A stretch of 64,000 bases of DNA from Verticillium longisporum (taxonomy: Eukaryota; Ascomycota; Sordariomycetes; Glomerellales; Plectosphaerellaceae), in NCBI GenBank assembly GCA_019188255.1, contig JAETXT010000014.1, positions 1,798,001-1,862,000 on the forward strand, read 5' to 3'. Within the stretch, counting starts at the first letter, position 1; each line of letters starts with the position of its first letter. A program made the position numbers and the translations under genes. The notes below the pieces were generated by a model. It worked only from the letters and a program-made list of their open reading frames with translations. It was not told the origin of the DNA and made no database searches. Shown here one piece after another: positions 35,554-64,000 of the stretch.

Positions 35554-36933
35554 CTAGAGGTCCTCAGCATCGCCCGTGCCGAACAGCTCGAGCCTGACGC
35601 GCGCACGCTCAACGCCCAGCGCCTCGAGCTTGTGCAACACTTCGACCATGAACGCCTGGGGACCGCAAACGAAGTAATCCGTCTCCTTGGAGTTGAGGCC
35701 GAGGTCCTGGGCGCCGTCGAGGACGTCGAGGTCGAGTCGGCCCTTGAAGTCGTAGGCCCGGCCCTGCTCCTCGCCCTCGACGACAGTGTTGAGGAACACC
35801 TTGGACTTGACGTTGGCGTTGTCGGCCGTCACCTTTTTGATGTGGGCGGCAAAGGCCATCTGGTCCGTCCGTCGCGCGGCGTGGACCCAGCGGATGGGGC
35901 GCTTGGTCATCTTGGACTCGGGACCGGCGAGGACCGCGTCGAGGATGGAGGTCAGGGGTGTGACACCCACACCGGCGGAGAGGAGCACGAGCGGGGCGTC
36001 GGCCTTTGTGGCGTCGTTGACGTCGATGAAGAACTCGCCGCGCGGGTAGGTAATCTCAATCTCGTCGCCGACCTGGAACTTGTCGTGCAGAATGTTGGAC
36101 ACGACGCCCGGGTGGTCGGCGGACGTGGCGCCGGCGTCCTCGGCCGCGCGCTCCCGCTTGACGCTGATGCGGTAGTGGTCGCCCTGGGGCGCCTCGCTCA
36201 TGCTGTACTGGCGGCACTGCCAGACGTCGCCGTACTCGGGCACGCGCACGCGGACGCTGACGTACTGGCCGGGCAGGAAGGGCGGCAGCGGGCCCGACGT
36301 GTCGCCCTCGGCGGGCTTGAGGTAGAAGCTCGTGACCGTGTTGGACTCTTGTTGGCGGCGGTCGATGCGGAACTTGCGCCAGCCGCGCCAGTCGCCGGCC
36401 TGGTCGTAGAGGTCGCCCTCGCGCTTGACGAAGATGTCGGCGAGCTGGCCGTAGGCGGCGACCCAGGCGTCGGCCACCTCGGGCGTCAGGCCGTCGCCGA
36501 GAACGGTGGCGATGGCCTTGATGAGATGCTCACCGACAATGGCGTACTGATCCGGGGTGACACCGAGACTGACGTGCTTCTGGGCGATGCGCTCGACGGC
36601 GGGGCCGAGCTTCTGGAGCTCGTCGATGTGGGTGGCGTAGGCGAGCACGGCGTTGGCGAGAGCCTTCTGCTGGGCGCCAGAGCGCTGGTTGCTGAGGTTG
36701 AAGACGTTGCGGAGCTCGGGGTGGGCGCCGAGCATGCTCTTGTAGAAGACGGTGGTGATGGTGGTGCCGTGCTCCTTGAGAATGGGCGCCGTCGATTTGA
36801 CAATGGCCGTCTGCGCTTCGGTCATGGCCATGTTGGGCGTTGTCGACGAGAATGTCCTAGCTATGGTGGTGGGCAGGCGAACAACGGCGCGAGAGTTGCG
36901 CAGGAGCGAGCGGGATGAGGCGAGATAGGACAT
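35554..36933 (-). CDS. Flavohemoglobin (nitric oxide dioxygenase) with mitochondrial presequence
   Basis: An intact intronless 459-residue protein that converts NO to nitrate with NAD(P)H and oxygen. Residues about 36-180 form the globin domain, ending in the helical GQLADIFVKREGDLY. The FAD-binding domain follows (FLPGQYVSVRV, QCRQYSMSEAP), then the NAD-binding domain (LVLLSAGVGVTPLTSIL, YFVCGPQAFM). The first 34 residues (MSYLASSRSLLRNSRAVVRL and on to ARTFSS) are Arg/Ser-rich without acids and look like a mitochondrial targeting peptide. A second start (MAMTEAQTA, around residue 35) matches cytosolic flavohemoglobins, so dual targeting by alternative starts is possible. A further upstream ATG (37095) opens a His-rich leader and is less likely. 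Confidence 0.95.
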   Translation of the reverse strand: MSYLASSRSLLRNSRAVVRLPTTIARTFSSTTPNMAMTEAQTAIVKSTAPILKEHGTTITTVFYKSMLGAHPELRNVFNLSNQRSGAQQKALANAVLAYATHIDELQKLGPAVERIAQKHVSLGVTPDQYAIVGEHLIKAIATVLGDGLTPEVADAWVAAYGQLADIFVKREGDLYDQAGDWRGWRKFRIDRRQQESNTVTSFYLKPAEGDTSGPLPPFLPGQYVSVRVRVPEYGDVWQCRQYSMSEAPQGDHYRISVKRERAAEDAGATSADHPGVVSNILHDKFQVGDEIEITYPRGEFFIDVNDATKADAPLVLLSAGVGVTPLTSILDAVLAGPESKMTKRPIRWVHAARRTDQMAFAAHIKKVTADNANVKSKVFLNTVVEGEEQGRAYDFKGRLDLDVLDGAQDLGLNSKETDYFVCGPQAFMVEVLHKLEALGVERARVRLELFGTGDAEDL

Positions 36934-38285
36934 GCGGGATGCTACCGATGTGTAGAGAGTGCGGAGGCTTGAGAGACGCCTTGGGGTGGAGAGTTGTCGT
37001 GGGAGTTGTAGTGGTTGTGGAGTAGGCAGATGGGGAATTGTGAATGCGGTCAGTGACCTATGATAGTAGTGATGATGATGATGCTCGTCTTTCACGATGG
37101 ACAGGAGGTGGGTGGGCCAACAACCTATTTATCAGACTCCAGGACGGCCGCGTGCGGCCAGCATGTCTTGCTCGACCCCAGACCATGGCGACTGACGGCT
37201 CGTTTCACGGTCGACGTCAACAGGCCACTATTCCCGTGCGTGAGCGAAAAACTGACAAGAGAATCGAGACTCATCGGGCGTGACCGCGCCTTGCGGCTCC
37301 GCAGGTTCTCCGTTCCGCTGAGGTTCTCCGGGTGGCATGATCTGCCGACGATACATCTCCGCGGCCCCGCAAAAGCCCTGTCCCGGCCGGGCTGGCGGGA
37401 GGCTTCGTTAGCAGGCTTCGTTAGTTGTTTTTCTCTCCCTAGGAGAGACAGCTGTACTGCCACTCGTCAAGGCGTTCCCCACGTCCTGGGTAGGTCATGG
37501 GCCCGTCGCCGTGCTGGCATTTGTCATGTTCGCATGGAGATGCGCGGAGCGATAGAATGATTTCTTCGGGCCATGCAGGTCTTGGCCTTCGTAGGCAGAC
37601 TACGTGTGCGCTCTCCCGAGGACTACCTAGAGACCCTATGCCCAGATTGACCTTTTCCCGACTGCGTACGAACAAGGGCCTTGCCAGGACAACCCAGGAC
37701 AACCCGACCGGAGATGTACATTCTGTCATTCATCAGCAGGTGTAAGCAGACCACATCTCACAAGGCCATTGAGTCGGTCAGACAGTCAGACAGTCAGCAA
37801 GAAGGCCGGCCAGGCAGTCTGTCGCACTGCCATTCATTCCGTCACGCTCCCAGAAAAGACCAACATGTGAAAAGGCGAGTCCCGGGAACGTGGCCCTGGT
37901 GGTCAGAGCAGTCCGTGACAAAACATGGACTGATTCCTCGCTCACGAGGGGTTCGGTGGGTCGGCGAATCCCGGGATTGTTCCGCCCTCTCCAACCAAGC
38001 CAAACAAGGGAATAGGGCCTCTTCTTCCCGCGCCCCAACGCCAACCACGTAACGCCAAATGGTCAGCTCCACGCGTGTGTGCCATGCCCTCGCGAACGCC
38101 ATCTTACGATCCGTCGTCTGGATCAGCATCACGCCTTCGCTGGTGAACGAGGGAGGGTGCTGCCAGAAGACGAGCGGCCGTACGATGGCGTTTTCCCTCA
38201 AACGCCTCCCTCCTCTACCTCCCTAGGCATGTACATTTACCTACCTAGGTAGGTAGGTAGGTGCCTTACTCTACGTAGTCGCTAT
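36934..38285. other. Intergenic, flavohemoglobin promoter
   Basis: A 1.35-kb spacer upstream of the flavohemoglobin gene, reaching to the 3' end of the CCCH gene. A GAT/ATG repeat sits near 37072. A palindromic ACCTACCTAGGTAGGT element is at about 38238-38262. No gene supported. Confidence 0.5.
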
Positions 38286-55683: not shown

Positions 55684-58113
55684 ATGTCTGCGTTTCCTAC
55701 GTTCGATCCCTCTCGCCTCACGAAGAAGTCTGCCGCCGCGCAATACTCGTCTGATTCTGACGAAGACAACGACGACGAGTTCACCACTCCTATTGTCGAT
55801 CCCGCCGCTGGAGATGACTTCCACAACTCGTATCCTCGGAATCGCCGTCGCATCGGCGGGTCCTAGGACCGCGCGGCTTTGGGTATCTATTGCCTCTGAC
55901 AGCGAGGATGACGGCCCGGGCAAGCGCTGGAAAAGAAGACGCTTCGCGGCAAGGGCATGAGTTTCGTATCTACAGGGACAATGGCCAACGCCCAAGACGA
56001 AAAAGAATACTCGGACGACAGCGACCGAAACGGACCACCAGCAGCCGAGGAGGATGACGAGGAAGCGGACGAGGAAGAGGACGAGGAAGAGGAAGAGGCC
56101 GCTGGGGTTGGCCTGGGATTTCGGTCAACAACGTATGGCGGGCTCGGCTTCGCACCGGCGACTAAAGACGAAGATACAGAGATGCAAGGCCAAGATGAAG
56201 CCCCATACAAGCCTTCCTTCGTAAAAACAAAGTTTGACGGACGCAACCCACTGGGCCGTGGCTTCGTACCATCGTCAGCGCGACAACCTGTGTTAACGAA
56301 CTTCGAGGATGATGAGAAGCCGAAGAAACCGACCATTGCACGGCCAAGTGCTTTTGCGCCGTCTCGAGACGGTACGGGCAGCACAAGCAAACCGAACCCC
56401 AAATCTTTCGGAGCGCGCATGATGGCCAAGATGGGCTACGTCGAGGGTACCGGTCTTGGTAAAGAGAGCCAGGGACGAAACGTCATTATTGAAGCCAACC
56501 TTCGACCTCAAGGTGTTGGTCTCGGTGCGGTCAAGGAAAAATCCGTGTCTGAACGGCGTGAAGAGAAGCGGCAGGCCGAGCTGCGCGGCGAGGTCGTCAT
56601 CGACTCGGATGAAGAAGAGAAGAAGAAGAGGCGCGAGAGGAAGAAGAGGCTGGGCGCCAGTGGTATCAGCAGTGGTACCAGTACTCCTCGACGACAGAAG
56701 ACGGCATTCATGACGGCAGAGGAGATCAAGAGGGCGGCGCCTGGTCTACACATTCCTGATGCTTTTGCGCCCATTCTCGACATGACAGGGCCAGGCAATA
56801 AACTGCTGACATCGATATCGGGATTGTTAACACCCACATCTGCTACCGCGCCTGAGTCGGCTGAAGCGATAGAAGCACGCAAGATAGTCAGGCGAGCGCA
56901 TGCCGACTTGGCGGCTTTCTCGGAGGAATGGCGGAGTCTCGAGGAGCGGAAGAGCTGGGTCGAGCTAGAGCTGCGACAGCACGAACAGGAGACGGCAGAC
57001 TTGGCCGCTGACCTGGAAAGAATGCGTGTGTTTGCCGGCATCGTCACTAACGAGCTGCCGGCGGCCACCGAGTGGCAGGACAAGATCCGATGCCTTCAAA
57101 AGGCCATCGATGCCGTTGGCTCTCCCAATAGCGAGGTCACGGATATCGCCGTCTCGGCGATCCACCCATTCTTCCGTGACCCAGATTGGGTTCTGCTGGA
57201 AGAGCCGAAACGCTTTGCTACCGAGCTCAACGATATGCGTGGCCTTCTGACCAAGTCTGCAACGAACGAGAAGACCATTGATAAGCTGAACGCCACGGCG
57301 AACGGCCTCAACGACACGGACCTTTATCGCCAACATCACAAGGCGACAACACCCTACGAGACTATGATGTACAAGCTTTGGTACCCCAAGGCCAGGGGAG
57401 GCATCCGAAACTGGGACGTGTACGACCCTGCGCCCCTACTAGCGGTGCTAGAGGCATGGAACTCTCTACTGCCAGCGTTCGTGCGCGCTCAGTTCCTTCA
57501 GGACGTGGTGCGGAAGCTGGAGACAGCCGTCAGCGAATGGAACCCGCGCAAGAAGCGCCAGAGCTACAAGCTCCCTCATCTGTGGCTTTTCCCCTGGCTG
57601 CAGTACCTTCCGTCCTACCATCTGGATCCAAAGGGCACCGGCCTTGTGGCCGATGTGCGGCGCAAATTCAGGCAACTTGTTGACGTGTGGGAATTTGACA
57701 GGGGCGTTGTGCCTGGTCTCACGCAGTGGCGCGACGTTCTGGGAAGTCAGTGGCAGCCGCTCATCATGTCCCATGTTTTGCCGAGCATGGGGCGCTACCT
57801 GCGGGAGAATTTCCGCGTCGACCCTGGCGACCAAGAGCCTTACCTTCCCATGCTCACAGGGACGCTCAGGTGGTCCAGCGTGTTGGGATCCAAGGTCCTG
57901 GCTGAAGTCATCGTGGCCGAGGTGTTCCCGCTCTGGCACGACAAGCTTGGCGAGTGGCTTCAGCTGGAGGAGGTCAATCTCGAGGAGGTGTACGCATGGT
58001 ACGAGTGGTGGAGGGACCAAGTCTTCCCCAAGGAATTGGCCACGCTGCCTGTGATTACAAAGGAGTTTGACAAGGGATCACTGACAATCGAGAGGGCGCT
58101 TGAGAGGATGTAG
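55684..58113 (+). CDS. TFIP11/Ntr1 (Spp382) G-patch spliceosome-disassembly factor, broken near the N-terminus
   Basis: About 809 residues. It recruits and activates the DEAH helicase Prp43 to release the spliced-out lariat. It starts MSAFPTFDPSRLTKKSAAA with acidic stretches. The G-patch is at FGARMMAKMGYVEGTGLGKE and the GCFC-type domain fills the second half (for example MMYKLWYPKARGGIRNWDVY). The main uninterrupted frame runs from 55957. Upstream, homology continues but three lesions occur in about 75 bp: a TAG at 55864-55866 (after RRRIGGS, before DRAALGI), an apparent extra base near 55889, and a missing A near 55936 (KRWKR to KTLRGKGMSFVS). The two shifts cancel. No intron of normal size removes them. 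This is either a local cluster of sequence errors or an N-terminally damaged gene. Confidence 0.9.
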
Positions 58114-59956: not shown

Positions 59957-62900
59957 ATGTCGGAAAGATCGTGTCCCGTGTCCGGCTCCCTCGGTGGAAG
60001 ATGTCCGGCTGGAAACGGTTCCGTTGCTGGGAATATCTCCAGACAGCGCGTCGGTCCACGAGGCTGTTCCTTTTCAGGCTACACACAACCGGGCGATCTT
60101 CACTCTGCCTTTGATGTAAGTTTTGCTTATAACAAGGGTCCAAGAGAAGCTCCCGGTCACCTGCTGACTCGACGACCTCAGATCCCCCGCGGTGTCGACG
60201 TAGATGAGTGGCTACGTGACCGCGAACGCAAGGCCATCAACGAGATTCTCTACTCCGACATTCCCTCGGCCAACTTTGTCGCCCAGGTCAAAAACGTCGA
60301 CACTCTTGTCGCCGATGACAAGGACCTGCTTGCCGTCGCACTCGGCGCTCCCGCTCGCCAGGTCATCCTTCGCGCCGAGAGCATCGGCCAGCGCACAGGG
60401 TGGAAGGACGGTTATCTCAGCGGCGAGTATGGCTTTTGCGCCCCGGACTCGAACGAAGCCGCTGGGGCTGTCGCTGGATGCCCCGGCCGCGTGTGGTCCG
60501 ATCTTTGCGAACGCATGCCCGGCTGCGTGTCCCGCGGCCGTGTGCGCGAATCCGTCGCCGCCCTACCCCTCGTCGAAGGCACTGAAGACATTATTCCTGA
60601 CCAGGCTCTGTGGGCGGCAATCGTCGCTCTGGGCATGCTGTGCTCGATCTATCGCTACGAGGACAAGAATGACGGTTACGACGGCGTCAGCACCAATACG
60701 ACATCGACCAAGCCCAACGTCGAAATGAGCGACGATCTCGGCCCCGAGCTCATCGGCATCCCCCGCAGCATCGGCCTCCCCTACTGGCAGGTCTCCCGCC
60801 GCATGGGCCGCGCCATCCCGCACCTGACCTTCTTCGACCAGGCCTCTCACAACATCCGCGTCCGCGACCCGACCTCGATCCACCCCTACGTGGGACGCTT
60901 CGACAACACCGACCTGCGATGGCCCATGTTTGGCGAGCGCACCGAGATAGCCTTCCTCAAAGGCTGCGCCGACACATCAGCCTCGTTCCAGCACGGGCCC
61001 GACGCCATCGCCGCGTGCCAGGAGCATGTCATGAACCGCAATATCGAGGGTTTGCTGCGCGAGATGGTCCGCCTCAAAGAGATCCTTGAGCGCATGCCCA
61101 ACGCGTTCCATTCCATCTCGACCAACCCCAACTCGGGCGACAACTTTGTCTCAGCCATGGAGTGGGTGCGCTGGGGCAAGTTCTCGGCGCCCCTGTCAAA
61201 GAGGTGCCCTGCTGCCTCGGGACTTCAGTTCCCGCCCTACCTGCTCATGGATGCTTTCCTCGGAAGGAAGAGATACGACTCGTTCCTCGGCAACGAGGGC
61301 CTTCACCTGCGTGCGTGGCTGCCCTCCAATCTGCGGGCTTTCATAGCTGCCGTCGAGTACCACTACCGTATGCCCGAGTTTGTCTGGCAGTCGGGCGATC
61401 CCCGTCTCATGGGGGTATTGGATGGCATCATCGAGGCTTACACGGGTGAGCGTGGCTTCATGGGCACGCATCGGTACAAGGTATTCGGCATCCTCGAGGA
61501 CGCCTCCTAGACGGGCCGCACGGAGACCAACGGAGCTTCTGGTGCCGCCGATGGCACGGGCCGGCCATGGGAAGAGGTCCATCGTCAGTTCTCGGACGCC
61601 ATGAAAGAGCGCCTCGAGCCGTTCCGTGGCAACATCCCCGTCGAGCCGCATCAGATGCGTGGTACCTTTGAGGAGTGCCGGTACAAGTCGCGCGTGCTCC
61701 GCCGTTCCTTTGTCGATTCAGACTCCGAACGGTCCATCGCCTGTGTGACGCTCGATCTCCACAACACTGGCATAACCTTCCAGCCCGGTGATCGCCTGGC
61801 CGTCATGCCACTGAACAGCTGGGAGGAGTGCGCCAAGGTAGCTGCCGCCCTTGGTCTCGACGACATGTTGGACGCGCCGGTACAGCTTGACAGCCGGTGG
61901 TCCCGATTCGCAGACCACTTGGACACCGTCGCCAACCACGGGGTCGCCCGCCTCCCAGGCAGCGCCAAGCTGACGGTCAAGGACGTTCTTCGTAGAGGAC
62001 ATCTCGCGCCTTTGACCCAGGAACTCGTCCTCAAGATTCATTCTTTGCTGCGCGCCTCCTCCAACACAGTTCTCCAGGCCCTTGCCACGGATGAGTGGCC
62101 CGTCCGTGGCACTCTGGGTGATCTTCTCCAGGCTGCCGTGCTTGACACGCCCATGCACGTCTGGGACCAGGCGTTTGAATTATCGAGGGACGTTGCCTGG
62201 TTGACCGACCTTATCCCCGTCGAGGTCCCACGGACATATTCCATCTCCAACTGTCCCGACGAACTGCTGCCCAGCACTGTCGACTTGACAATCTCACGCG
62301 CCGAGTACAAGCTCTGCTCGACCTTTGCTGGCAATGCTTCTGTTCCCAGGCCTGGCGTCAGCAGTGGTTTTCTGAACCCAACCGTCGGCTCGGCTGGCGA
62401 CTTCATCACGGCAGAAGACGACATTCTCGTGGGCGTCTCTCGTCCTGTCGCCTTTCAGCTGCCCCTTGACGAGGCAGCACCCTGCGCCTTCTTCGCGGGC
62501 GGCAGCGGCATCGCACCCTTCAGGAGCTTCTGGCAGTCCCGCGCCGGGCGAGCCGTCGGGCGCAACATTCTTTACCTAGGCGTACAGAACCGTGAGAAGT
62601 TCTGCTACGAGGACGAGCTGCGGCGGTATGTCCATGCCGGCTTCATGGAGGTCCACTTGGCCTTCTCTCGCGACAGCCGGGGTCTTGCCTACGACAGCGT
62701 CTCGCGCGACCTAGTCGAGCGACGCATGGAGCCACGGTACATCGACGCGCTCATCGCCGAGCAGGGCGCTACCGTGTGTGATCTTACCATGTCCAAGAAG
62801 CAAGGCGGACTCGGCGGGCATTTGTACATTTGCGGATCCGTTGCTGTCTTTGATTCCGTCATGAACGGCCTGCGCAAAGCCATCTACAACCACCGCACAG

Positions 62901-64000
62901 CCACGATGGAGTCAACTGACCTCATTATCAACACAGCCTTTGCCGAGCGGCGCATCATGCTCGACGTCTTCATGACGCCCAAGCCCTTACCCTGCAACAA
63001 GCCTACAATTCCCCTATCACAGCTTGCGCTCCACACGGGCCATCGCCCCGGAAGCCGAATCTGGATCGGTGTGCACGGCAGTGCTTACGACGTGACCGAC
63101 TTTTGCCCGATGCACCCGGGCGGCACGTTGATCCTCAAGTCCAACGCTGGCGTTGACTGCTCCAAGTCGTTCGACAACCTCGCGCACACCAACAACCCCG
63201 AGGTGGCAAGCCTGTTGACCAAGTATTTCGTCGGTCACCTCACGCCGAAGCCCGAGTTTCACGATGGCGGCGAGCTCAGTGGACTGTACGACCTGTGGGC
63301 TGACTACCTCAAGACGACGGTTGAGACGCTTGTGGCACAGCAGTTTGAAATGGAAGACCTCATGGGCTCGTCCTTGTGGTTCCAGGAGAACATGATTAAC
63401 ATCATGGGAGTGCGCATCTTCTACCAATATCAGTCCCGCCTGCTACAGTCGGGCTTCTCGGCACTTTTCGGCCCCAAGTTCCAGGAGCTCGTGCTCAAAC
63501 TGTCATTCGCCATGGCCAACGCAGCGTCAGCGGCGGGGTCTGAAACACAGCTGCCGGACATTCTGGGTGTGGTTGCACGCGCCAAGACGTCAGCGGATGC
63601 CGTGGCAACGTCCAAAGAGGTGGCCCTCGTCGGGCAGTACGTATGCAACAGCGAACCGGCGCGCTTCCAGGAGCGAGGCATCATGGACTACGCCAGCCGG
63701 TCCGTGAGCCTTGATATGGCGCTGCTCGAAGACATCAGGGAGGAAGCATGCCATGGTATGGACGCCTTCGGAACCGTCATGGAGCTCGAAGCGACATCGG
63801 ACGCGCAGCGTGTGGCGGCCATGTGTTCGTTTCTCATGCAGGTGCTGGAGCGCATGGCGAAGCGGCTCGAAGTGTTCTATGCGCAGCTGGCGCAGTGCTC
63901 CATCTACAGGCCCGAGCTTGAGCGCAACCCGGCACGGACGCGCTGGGAGCTCGTCAGGCGGCGCATTCGAGACGGATCACTGTTCGTGCTGGCGCGGCGA
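59957..64000 (+). CDS. IDO/PrnB-like heme dioxygenase - FAD/NADPH reductase - cytochrome b5 fusion (partial at window end)
   Basis: One frame, 1348 codons to the window edge, no introns, broken only by TAG at 61508-61510 (codon 518). About residues 60-515 resemble the indoleamine 2,3-dioxygenase/PrnB heme-dioxygenase superfamily: IPRSIGLPYWQVSRRMGR, HPYVGRFDN, and GFMGTHRYKVFGI with candidate proximal His505. From about 550 comes a P450-reductase-type module without an FMN domain: FQPGDRLAVMPLN, RTYSIS (Arg759) for FAD, GGSGIAPFRSF (848 on) and HLYICGSV for NADPH. A cytochrome b5 follows with MHPGG (His1053) and LAHTNNPEV (His1077). Residues from about 1090 are helical and unrecognised, and continue past the edge. 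The inferred electron path is NADPH, FAD, b5, heme. The substrate is unknown. Two Cys-Pro dipeptides (residues 6-7 and 16-17) lie at the N-terminus. Confidence 0.85.
61508..61510 (+). other. In-frame TAG between dioxygenase and reductase modules
   Basis: The sequence reads FGILEDAS, TAG, TGRTETNG, then PWEEVHRQFSDAMKERL. Both flanks are in the same frame and both have coding character, so the TAG is a substitution relative to a fused ancestor, a sequencing error, or a functional stop. Confidence 0.9.

Follow-up and report, generated by a model that had tools for sequence, protein, structure and literature searches.

A fungal fusion of an IDO-type heme domain, a reductase module and cytochrome b5, probably a self-sufficient oxygenase, present as two sister copies in Verticillium longisporum

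What would a fungus do with a single polypeptide in which a heme domain of the indoleamine 2,3-dioxygenase (IDO) type is followed by its own reductase module and a cytochrome b5? This question is raised by a gene on the forward strand of a 64,000-nucleotide stretch of Verticillium longisporum DNA (hereafter the window), which corresponds to positions 1,798,001 to 1,862,000 of contig JAETXT010000014.1 (C6) in a genome of 72,013,526 bases and 16 contigs. The gene starts at window position 59957 and runs beyond the window's end. The analysis indicated that the locus rather likely represents a self-sufficient oxygenase gene that is widespread in fungi and present here as two sister copies, with monooxygenation driven by reduced nicotinamide adenine dinucleotide phosphate (NADPH) as its most likely activity. 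The fusion family is real and widespread and appears to be uncharacterised, its architecture being a variant of the self-sufficient heme oxygenase idea; no description of it was found among the open-access papers listed. The window copy itself is broken or misassembled.

Domain order of the fusion and its recurrence in fungi

The preliminary description of this DNA had read one frame linking an IDO/PrnB-like heme dioxygenase, a P450-reductase-type module for flavin adenine dinucleotide (FAD) and NADPH that has no flavodoxin, a cytochrome b5 with its two heme histidines and an extra helical domain. The chain of domains was borne out, but the continuity of the frame was not, an intron (60116–60181) and an in-frame TAG (61508–61510) having been overlooked. 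The first domain (60182–61507, + strand, as are all features of this gene) matched the Pfam IDO family (PF01231) at 34.9 bits against a cut-off of 26, which places the N-terminal part within the IDO family. The PrnB-like alternative was not upheld, the N-terminal part giving no row in Pfam at E values up to 10 for PrnB, whose profile we take to be PF08933 (DUF1864). A single-sequence search matched IDO1 in the Protein Data Bank (PDB) at an E value of only 0.0018, and the family profile reached 8.6e-15 against IDO1, with about 57 bits for human IDO1. NCBIfam gave no match for the heme domain. Pfam rows for the nitric oxide synthase (NOS) oxygenase domain were absent for any part of the protein (E up to 1) and for the N-terminal part (E up to 10), and those for P450 and globin were likewise missing from both scans.

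Downstream lies a FAD/NADPH reductase module (61634–62977) of the P450 reductase, sulfite reductase and NOS type, with a connecting domain and the ending RxMxDVF, for which FAD_binding_1 (43.1 bits) and NAD_binding_1 (34.7 bits) both exceeded their cut-offs. Pfam gave no flavodoxin row, and a crude flavodoxin motif was found in none of 355 relatives, many of which are fragments. The NCBIfam sulfite reductase model scored 93.3, far below its cut-off of 432. The cytochrome b5 domain (63014–63247) matched Cyt-b5 above the cut-off at 49.7 bits and carries its heme histidines at 63113–63115 (HPGG) and 63185–63187 (LAHT). From 63272 to the window's last base at 64000 there follow a helical domain, which reaches about 64036, and then a low-complexity tail whose frame ends outside the window. 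Structure prediction gave the helical domain long helices at a high predicted local distance difference test (pLDDT) score; it had no Pfam match above cut-off and no usable PDB sequence match, and its fold search was dominated by b5 rows. Heme domain, reductase and b5 each had sequence matches in both Pfam and the PDB. The reductase and b5 folds were backed by fold searches with the models, two of which (50 rows shown each) gave rows covering the reductase, with the connecting domain recognised.

Relatives were collected by a search with the fusion as query (candidates 0.55–1.75 times the query length, the best 120 of 370 matches listed) and by another search in which the reductase half was the query (120 of 281 matches listed). 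Alignments were made of 58 of the 120 fusion-search proteins (A1), of 22 of the 115 matches of a heme-domain search (A2) and of 59 of the 240 proteins from both listings (A4), the last being the source of every count out of 59 rows given below. By pairwise matches, the order heme domain, reductase, b5, helical domain was found in all 120 listed fusion-search proteins, and all four Pfam domains were named in 119 of these, P0016 having no b5 row. In the reductase-half listing, 88 of 120 proteins had the full order and 32 had no heme domain; in 31 of the 32 the reductase match starts within the first 61 residues, and these proteins therefore look truncated or exon-limited. The remaining one, P0314, is a chimeric model. 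The fusion order, for which the preliminary description had suggested collecting orthologues, thus recurs across fungi, suggesting that the architecture is more than chance.

The species named in the fusion-search listing include Sordariomycetes, Leotiomycetes and Dothideomycetes, to which the reductase-half listing added Eurotiomycetes, one Pezizomycete and, from the Basidiomycota, partial proteins of Serendipita and Rhizoctonia. Identity was 70–87% among the named listed fusion-search matches and fell to about 48% in the reductase-half listing. Six divergent proteins were scanned, and four of them, 49–56% identical over the reductase half, matched all four profiles, with PF01231 at 45.5–51.5 bits; in one of the four, P0339, FAD_binding_1 lay just below its cut-off (31.6 versus 32.3). 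A tree was built from 27 proteins, several of its deep nodes being weakly supported; Colletotrichum sublineola and C. tofieldiae each have two paralogues, split over two clades. Among the 115 heme-domain matches, 27 had a further module and 88 had none besides the heme domain, most of these being metagenome sequences or short gene calls, and no true stand-alone member was established. In a weak search for prokaryotic relatives, made in a genome-contig collection with two narrow A2 peptide patterns, 60 stretches matched and none encodes a relative. In P0231, P0234 and P0235 the candidate heme histidine motif is followed, directly after its THR, by diverging sequence that looks like a read-through intron; this may be why some gene calls separate the heme part from the reductase part.

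Residues expected to hold the cofactors were conserved. The position of the candidate proximal heme histidine, H430 (numbered from 60182; 61469–61471) within ERGFMGTHRYKVF, identified by alignment, is His in all 59 rows and in all 229 readable relatives (237 examined, 8 unreadable), and the N-terminal heme is, judging from the sequence, probably histidine-ligated. Both b5 histidines and the FAD/NADPH residues are kept in 59 of 59 rows, and the terminal aromatic residue is present. The RTYSI, GGSGIAPFR, FSRD and CGS motifs of the reductase occurred in 235–244 of the 355 relatives, fragments counted. A stretch resembling the small-domain motif of IDO1 (chain 42–68) was similar in look, its match not being significant (−0.1 bits).

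The window copy, its sister and the in-frame stop

Exon 1 (59957–60115), read by translation, holds the start codon and an N-terminal leader with the stretch GPRGCSFSGYTQPGDLHSAFD. The start at 59957 proposed in the preliminary description agrees with P0002, P0003, P0004, P0005 and P0008, which also open with MSERSCPVS; among the matches listed, half of the 12 relatives with printed starts (6) have differing predicted starts. The intron of 66 bases (60116–60181) was read from the sequence as GTAAGT ... CTGAC ... CAG. P0001 and P0002 are uninterrupted at this site, SAFD being joined to IPRG, and the sister copy shows a one-base length difference and a stop within the intron. Two Cys-Pro dipeptides lie near the N-terminus (59969–60010), and two within the first 80 residues were present in 75 of the 120 listed fusion relatives. 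Cys-Pro is a heme regulatory motif, and the pair would suggest heme-dependent control.

The TAG at 61508–61510 lies between the dioxygenase and reductase parts and shares its frame with both halves, the first half stopping just past the heme domain. It is missing in the sister copy (L010, on contig C16), which is open at this place and has a frame of 1339 residues, and three relatives with printed alignments continue through the position. Because the TAG is in frame, the window copy cannot simply produce the fusion. Removal of the stop by splicing was considered and rejected: 16 frame-keeping GT..AG segments of 45–160 bases span it, and the branch pattern CT[AG]A[CT] occurs in none of them. 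The second half was followed past position 64,000, as had been proposed, and its frame ends at about 64786 (3511–6786 of L009, where adding 58000 gives the window position).

The sister copy loses its own frame in the low-complexity distal tail, at about position 7412 of L010, through a one-base length difference; thus there is one lesion or error in each copy. Only these two copies were found in the genome, both in the P0001 clade. Comparison of the copies over 1587 codons (counted within the tail in the frame of the window copy) gave 130 synonymous differences, 20 non-synonymous differences and one stop, with no non-synonymous difference in b5. The preponderance of synonymous differences indicates that the protein has long been under strong purifying constraint, and that the stop is therefore recent, or an assembly error. 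V. longisporum PD589 has been described as a hybrid of two haploid species, with a nanopore-based assembly of 72.0 Mb and 16/17 chromosomes (PMC8406199). In this hybrid-type genome with its two sister copies, the window stop is a candidate loss of function in one of them: the window copy would yield no more than a heme domain by itself, and the fusion would derive from the sister copy.

That the TAG is instead a sequencing or assembly error in an intact window copy is an alternative that we think rather unlikely. Purifying selection on the rest of the gene speaks for an error, as does the agreement of this genome, in size and chromosome number, with the nanopore-based assembly of V. longisporum PD589 (PMC8406199). 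However, the copies differ in length at two places, and the stop lies at neither, being a substitution-type difference; the comparison used one assembly.

Proposed activity and its alternatives

In the favoured reading, NADPH would reduce the FAD, and single electrons would then pass from the FAD to the b5 heme. Such a flavin-to-b5 electron step occurs in nitrate reductase and in b5 reductases. The b5 would in turn reduce the His-ligated IDO-type heme, where O2 would be activated, and the product step would be the monooxygenation of a small molecule, which may be aromatic. A role in positioning the b5 is possible for the helical domain. NADPH-driven monooxygenation is favoured because a single electron is enough to prime IDO dioxygenation, whereas the heme has to be reduced again at each turnover of monooxygenation, and here the reductase is tethered in a 1:1 ratio. 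A single reducing equivalent has been reported to sustain continuous dioxygenation by IDO, the monooxygenase path requiring re-reduction (PMC12921851). Monooxygenation by MarE was promoted by ascorbate (PMC12312684), and b5 has been proposed as the physiological reductant of IDO (PMC4191572).

Several observations weigh against this reading. Human IDO1 was reported to be less active when supplied with b5 than when assayed with methylene blue (PMC4191572). The count of domain order is biased to fusions by the use of a fusion query, a length filter and the best 120 of 370 matches, and P0001, which is among the 120, is listed as the window's own kind. The model of the heme domain is poor (a 1044-residue model with block-mean pLDDT of 32–85, and 63.4 for the whole), so that the assignment of the IDO fold rests on sequence. 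Two of the six divergent proteins, P0348 and P0355, gave no IDO row, both missing the first part of the domain. IDO1 His346, which we take to be the proximal heme ligand of IDO1, pairs with a non-histidine residue, the conserved His lying 3 residues downstream. The TAG interrupts the window copy, and the sister copy is frame-shifted in its distal tail. The heme domain could also be a sensor or a mere oxidase.

The main rival is that the protein is a true dioxygenase, its reductase and b5 merely holding the heme ferrous and its product being N-formylkynurenine or a relative. The preliminary description had proposed a self-sufficient dioxygenase, or a related oxygenase acting on an indole or another amino acid, an interpretation that was partly supported; of the two readings, dioxygenation is an unlikely one, the monooxygenase being favoured. 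The dioxygenase reading can draw on the IDO homology of the heme domain and on the active-site loop, where 58 of 59 rows have Ser and Gln at the positions paired with Ser263 and Gln266 of the IDO loop, the remaining row being gapped. The position of Ser167, on the other hand, is Cys or Val in all 59 rows. The genome already has three strong IDO-type loci, with best exon scores of 558, 403 and 296 bits, yet the fusion profile scored at most 6.0 bits on their open frames with filters off (intron-bearing genes, two of the three, being searched as exon pieces). Human IDO1, by comparison, gave about 57 bits, so the heme domain does not resemble a recent copy of these loci. The proposal of b5 as an IDO reductant (PMC4191572) would suit a dioxygenase too, but dioxygenation requires no stoichiometric electrons (PMC12921851).

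We regard it as quite improbable that the fusion is an NADPH-driven enzyme related to nitric oxide (NO), peroxide or superoxide, that is, a NO dioxygenase or NADPH oxidase whose IDO-type heme binds a gas. Such an enzyme would share the order heme, FAD, NADPH with flavohemoglobin, and database names such as 'NADPH oxidoreductase A' point the same way. However, a flavohemoglobin-type gene is already present in the window (35554–37095, − strand), and the active-site loop AxSGL is conserved in all 199 relatives that match the loop pattern among 355 searched, which fits an organic ligand. Least probable is that the window copy consists of separate heme dioxygenase and b5 reductase genes, each with its own start, as the in-frame TAG at 61508–61510 and an open reading frame with an in-frame ATG from 61601 might suggest, for the frame is the same on both sides, no stop interrupts the sister copy at this site, the relatives are single proteins of identical order, and 31 of the 32 listed relatives without a heme domain resemble truncated or exon-limited gene calls.

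More tentatively, and with somewhat less than even confidence, the NADPH-driven monooxygenase may represent a further class of self-sufficient heme monooxygenases beside the P450-reductase fusions and NOS, defined by an IDO-homologous His-ligated heme, a P450-reductase module without flavin mononucleotide (FMN) and a tethered b5, widespread in Ascomycota, present in Basidiomycota and hidden under names of the 'sulfite reductase' and 'nitric oxide synthase' kind. In its boldest form, this proposal would have the class supply an oxidised small molecule that acts as a signal, or even some of the NO whose production in fungi lacks an explanation. Should the electron path be true, the fusion would offer a natural test of what steers enzymes of the IDO superfamily towards mono- or dioxygenation, a question under current debate for human IDO and MarE. 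It would also be a self-sufficient biocatalyst ready for use, the names of a large group of fungal genes would be put right, and a conserved protein would gain a function.

Known systems, database names and neighbouring genes

The fusion shares with IDO (PF01231) and the heme-dependent aromatic oxygenases (TDO, PrnB, MarE) a homologous heme domain, an S..Q loop ahead of D..LG and a conserved His near IDO1 His346. It differs from IDO in its added reductase and b5, in the Cys/Val at the Ser167 position, in the 3-residue shift of the His and in its remoteness from the genome's own IDOs; to our knowledge, known IDOs stand alone. The diflavin reductases (P450 reductase, NOS reductase and the sulfite reductase flavoprotein) have the same FAD/NADPH module with connecting domain, motifs and terminal aromatic residue, but the fusion has no FMN/flavodoxin domain and is therefore not classed with them, its C-terminal b5 being the likely one-electron carrier. 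P450 BM3, P450foxy and NOS likewise place an oxygenase heme domain N-terminal to their own NADPH reductase in one chain, whereas in the fusion the heme domain is of another family, the ligand would be His rather than Cys, and b5 takes the place of FMN. Flavohemoglobin has the same heme, FAD, NADPH order; the fusion differs in having no globin, another reductase subfamily and, in addition, a b5 and a helical domain. In nitrate reductase and Ncb5or, too, b5 is paired with a FAD/NAD(P)H module, but the fusion has another order, another reductase type and no molybdenum domain.

The relatives carry source names such as 'sulfite reductase flavoprotein alpha-component', 'related to nitric-oxide synthase', 'NADPH-hemoprotein reductase', 'putative indoleamine 2,3-dioxygenase' and 'NADPH oxidoreductase A'. 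These names may feed into the discussion of fungal NO, although the analysis turned up nothing to indicate that the fusion protein makes NO. Production of NO in fungi without clear NOS genes has been discussed (PMC10889981). The Neurospora genes NCU05185 and NCU05006 are strong matches of Magnaporthe NOL2/NOL3, and their knock-outs were unchanged in NO, growth and conidiation (PMC4948021), findings repeated or paralleled elsewhere (PMC10607626, PMC4778047). NCU05185 has been called 'P-450-related' (PMC6738131) and 'NADPH-P450 reductase' (PMC6468284), and NCU05006 has been placed next to a polyketide cluster (PMC9239088). Given the P450 labels of NCU05185, which we take to be a P450foxy, the two genes were dropped as possible members of the fusion family, and the mutants were not used as evidence. 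The b5 reported as fused to b5 reductases (PMC4557397) belongs to a different fusion.

The database model of P0314 fuses a GCFC domain (PF07842) to part of the reductase and b5, and looks like a prediction artefact. A GCFC/G-patch gene, which carries the same GCFC domain, neighbours the fusion in the window (55957–58113). A weaker pair of IDO-type loci, distinct from the three strong ones, was found at C10:6370885–6371706 and C1:3360483–3361319, with 79 bits each. The flavohemoglobin-type gene at 35554–37095 (− strand) lies about 23 kb from the fusion and matched Globin at 59.4, NAD_binding_1 at 50.9 and FAD_binding_6 at 25.4 bits.

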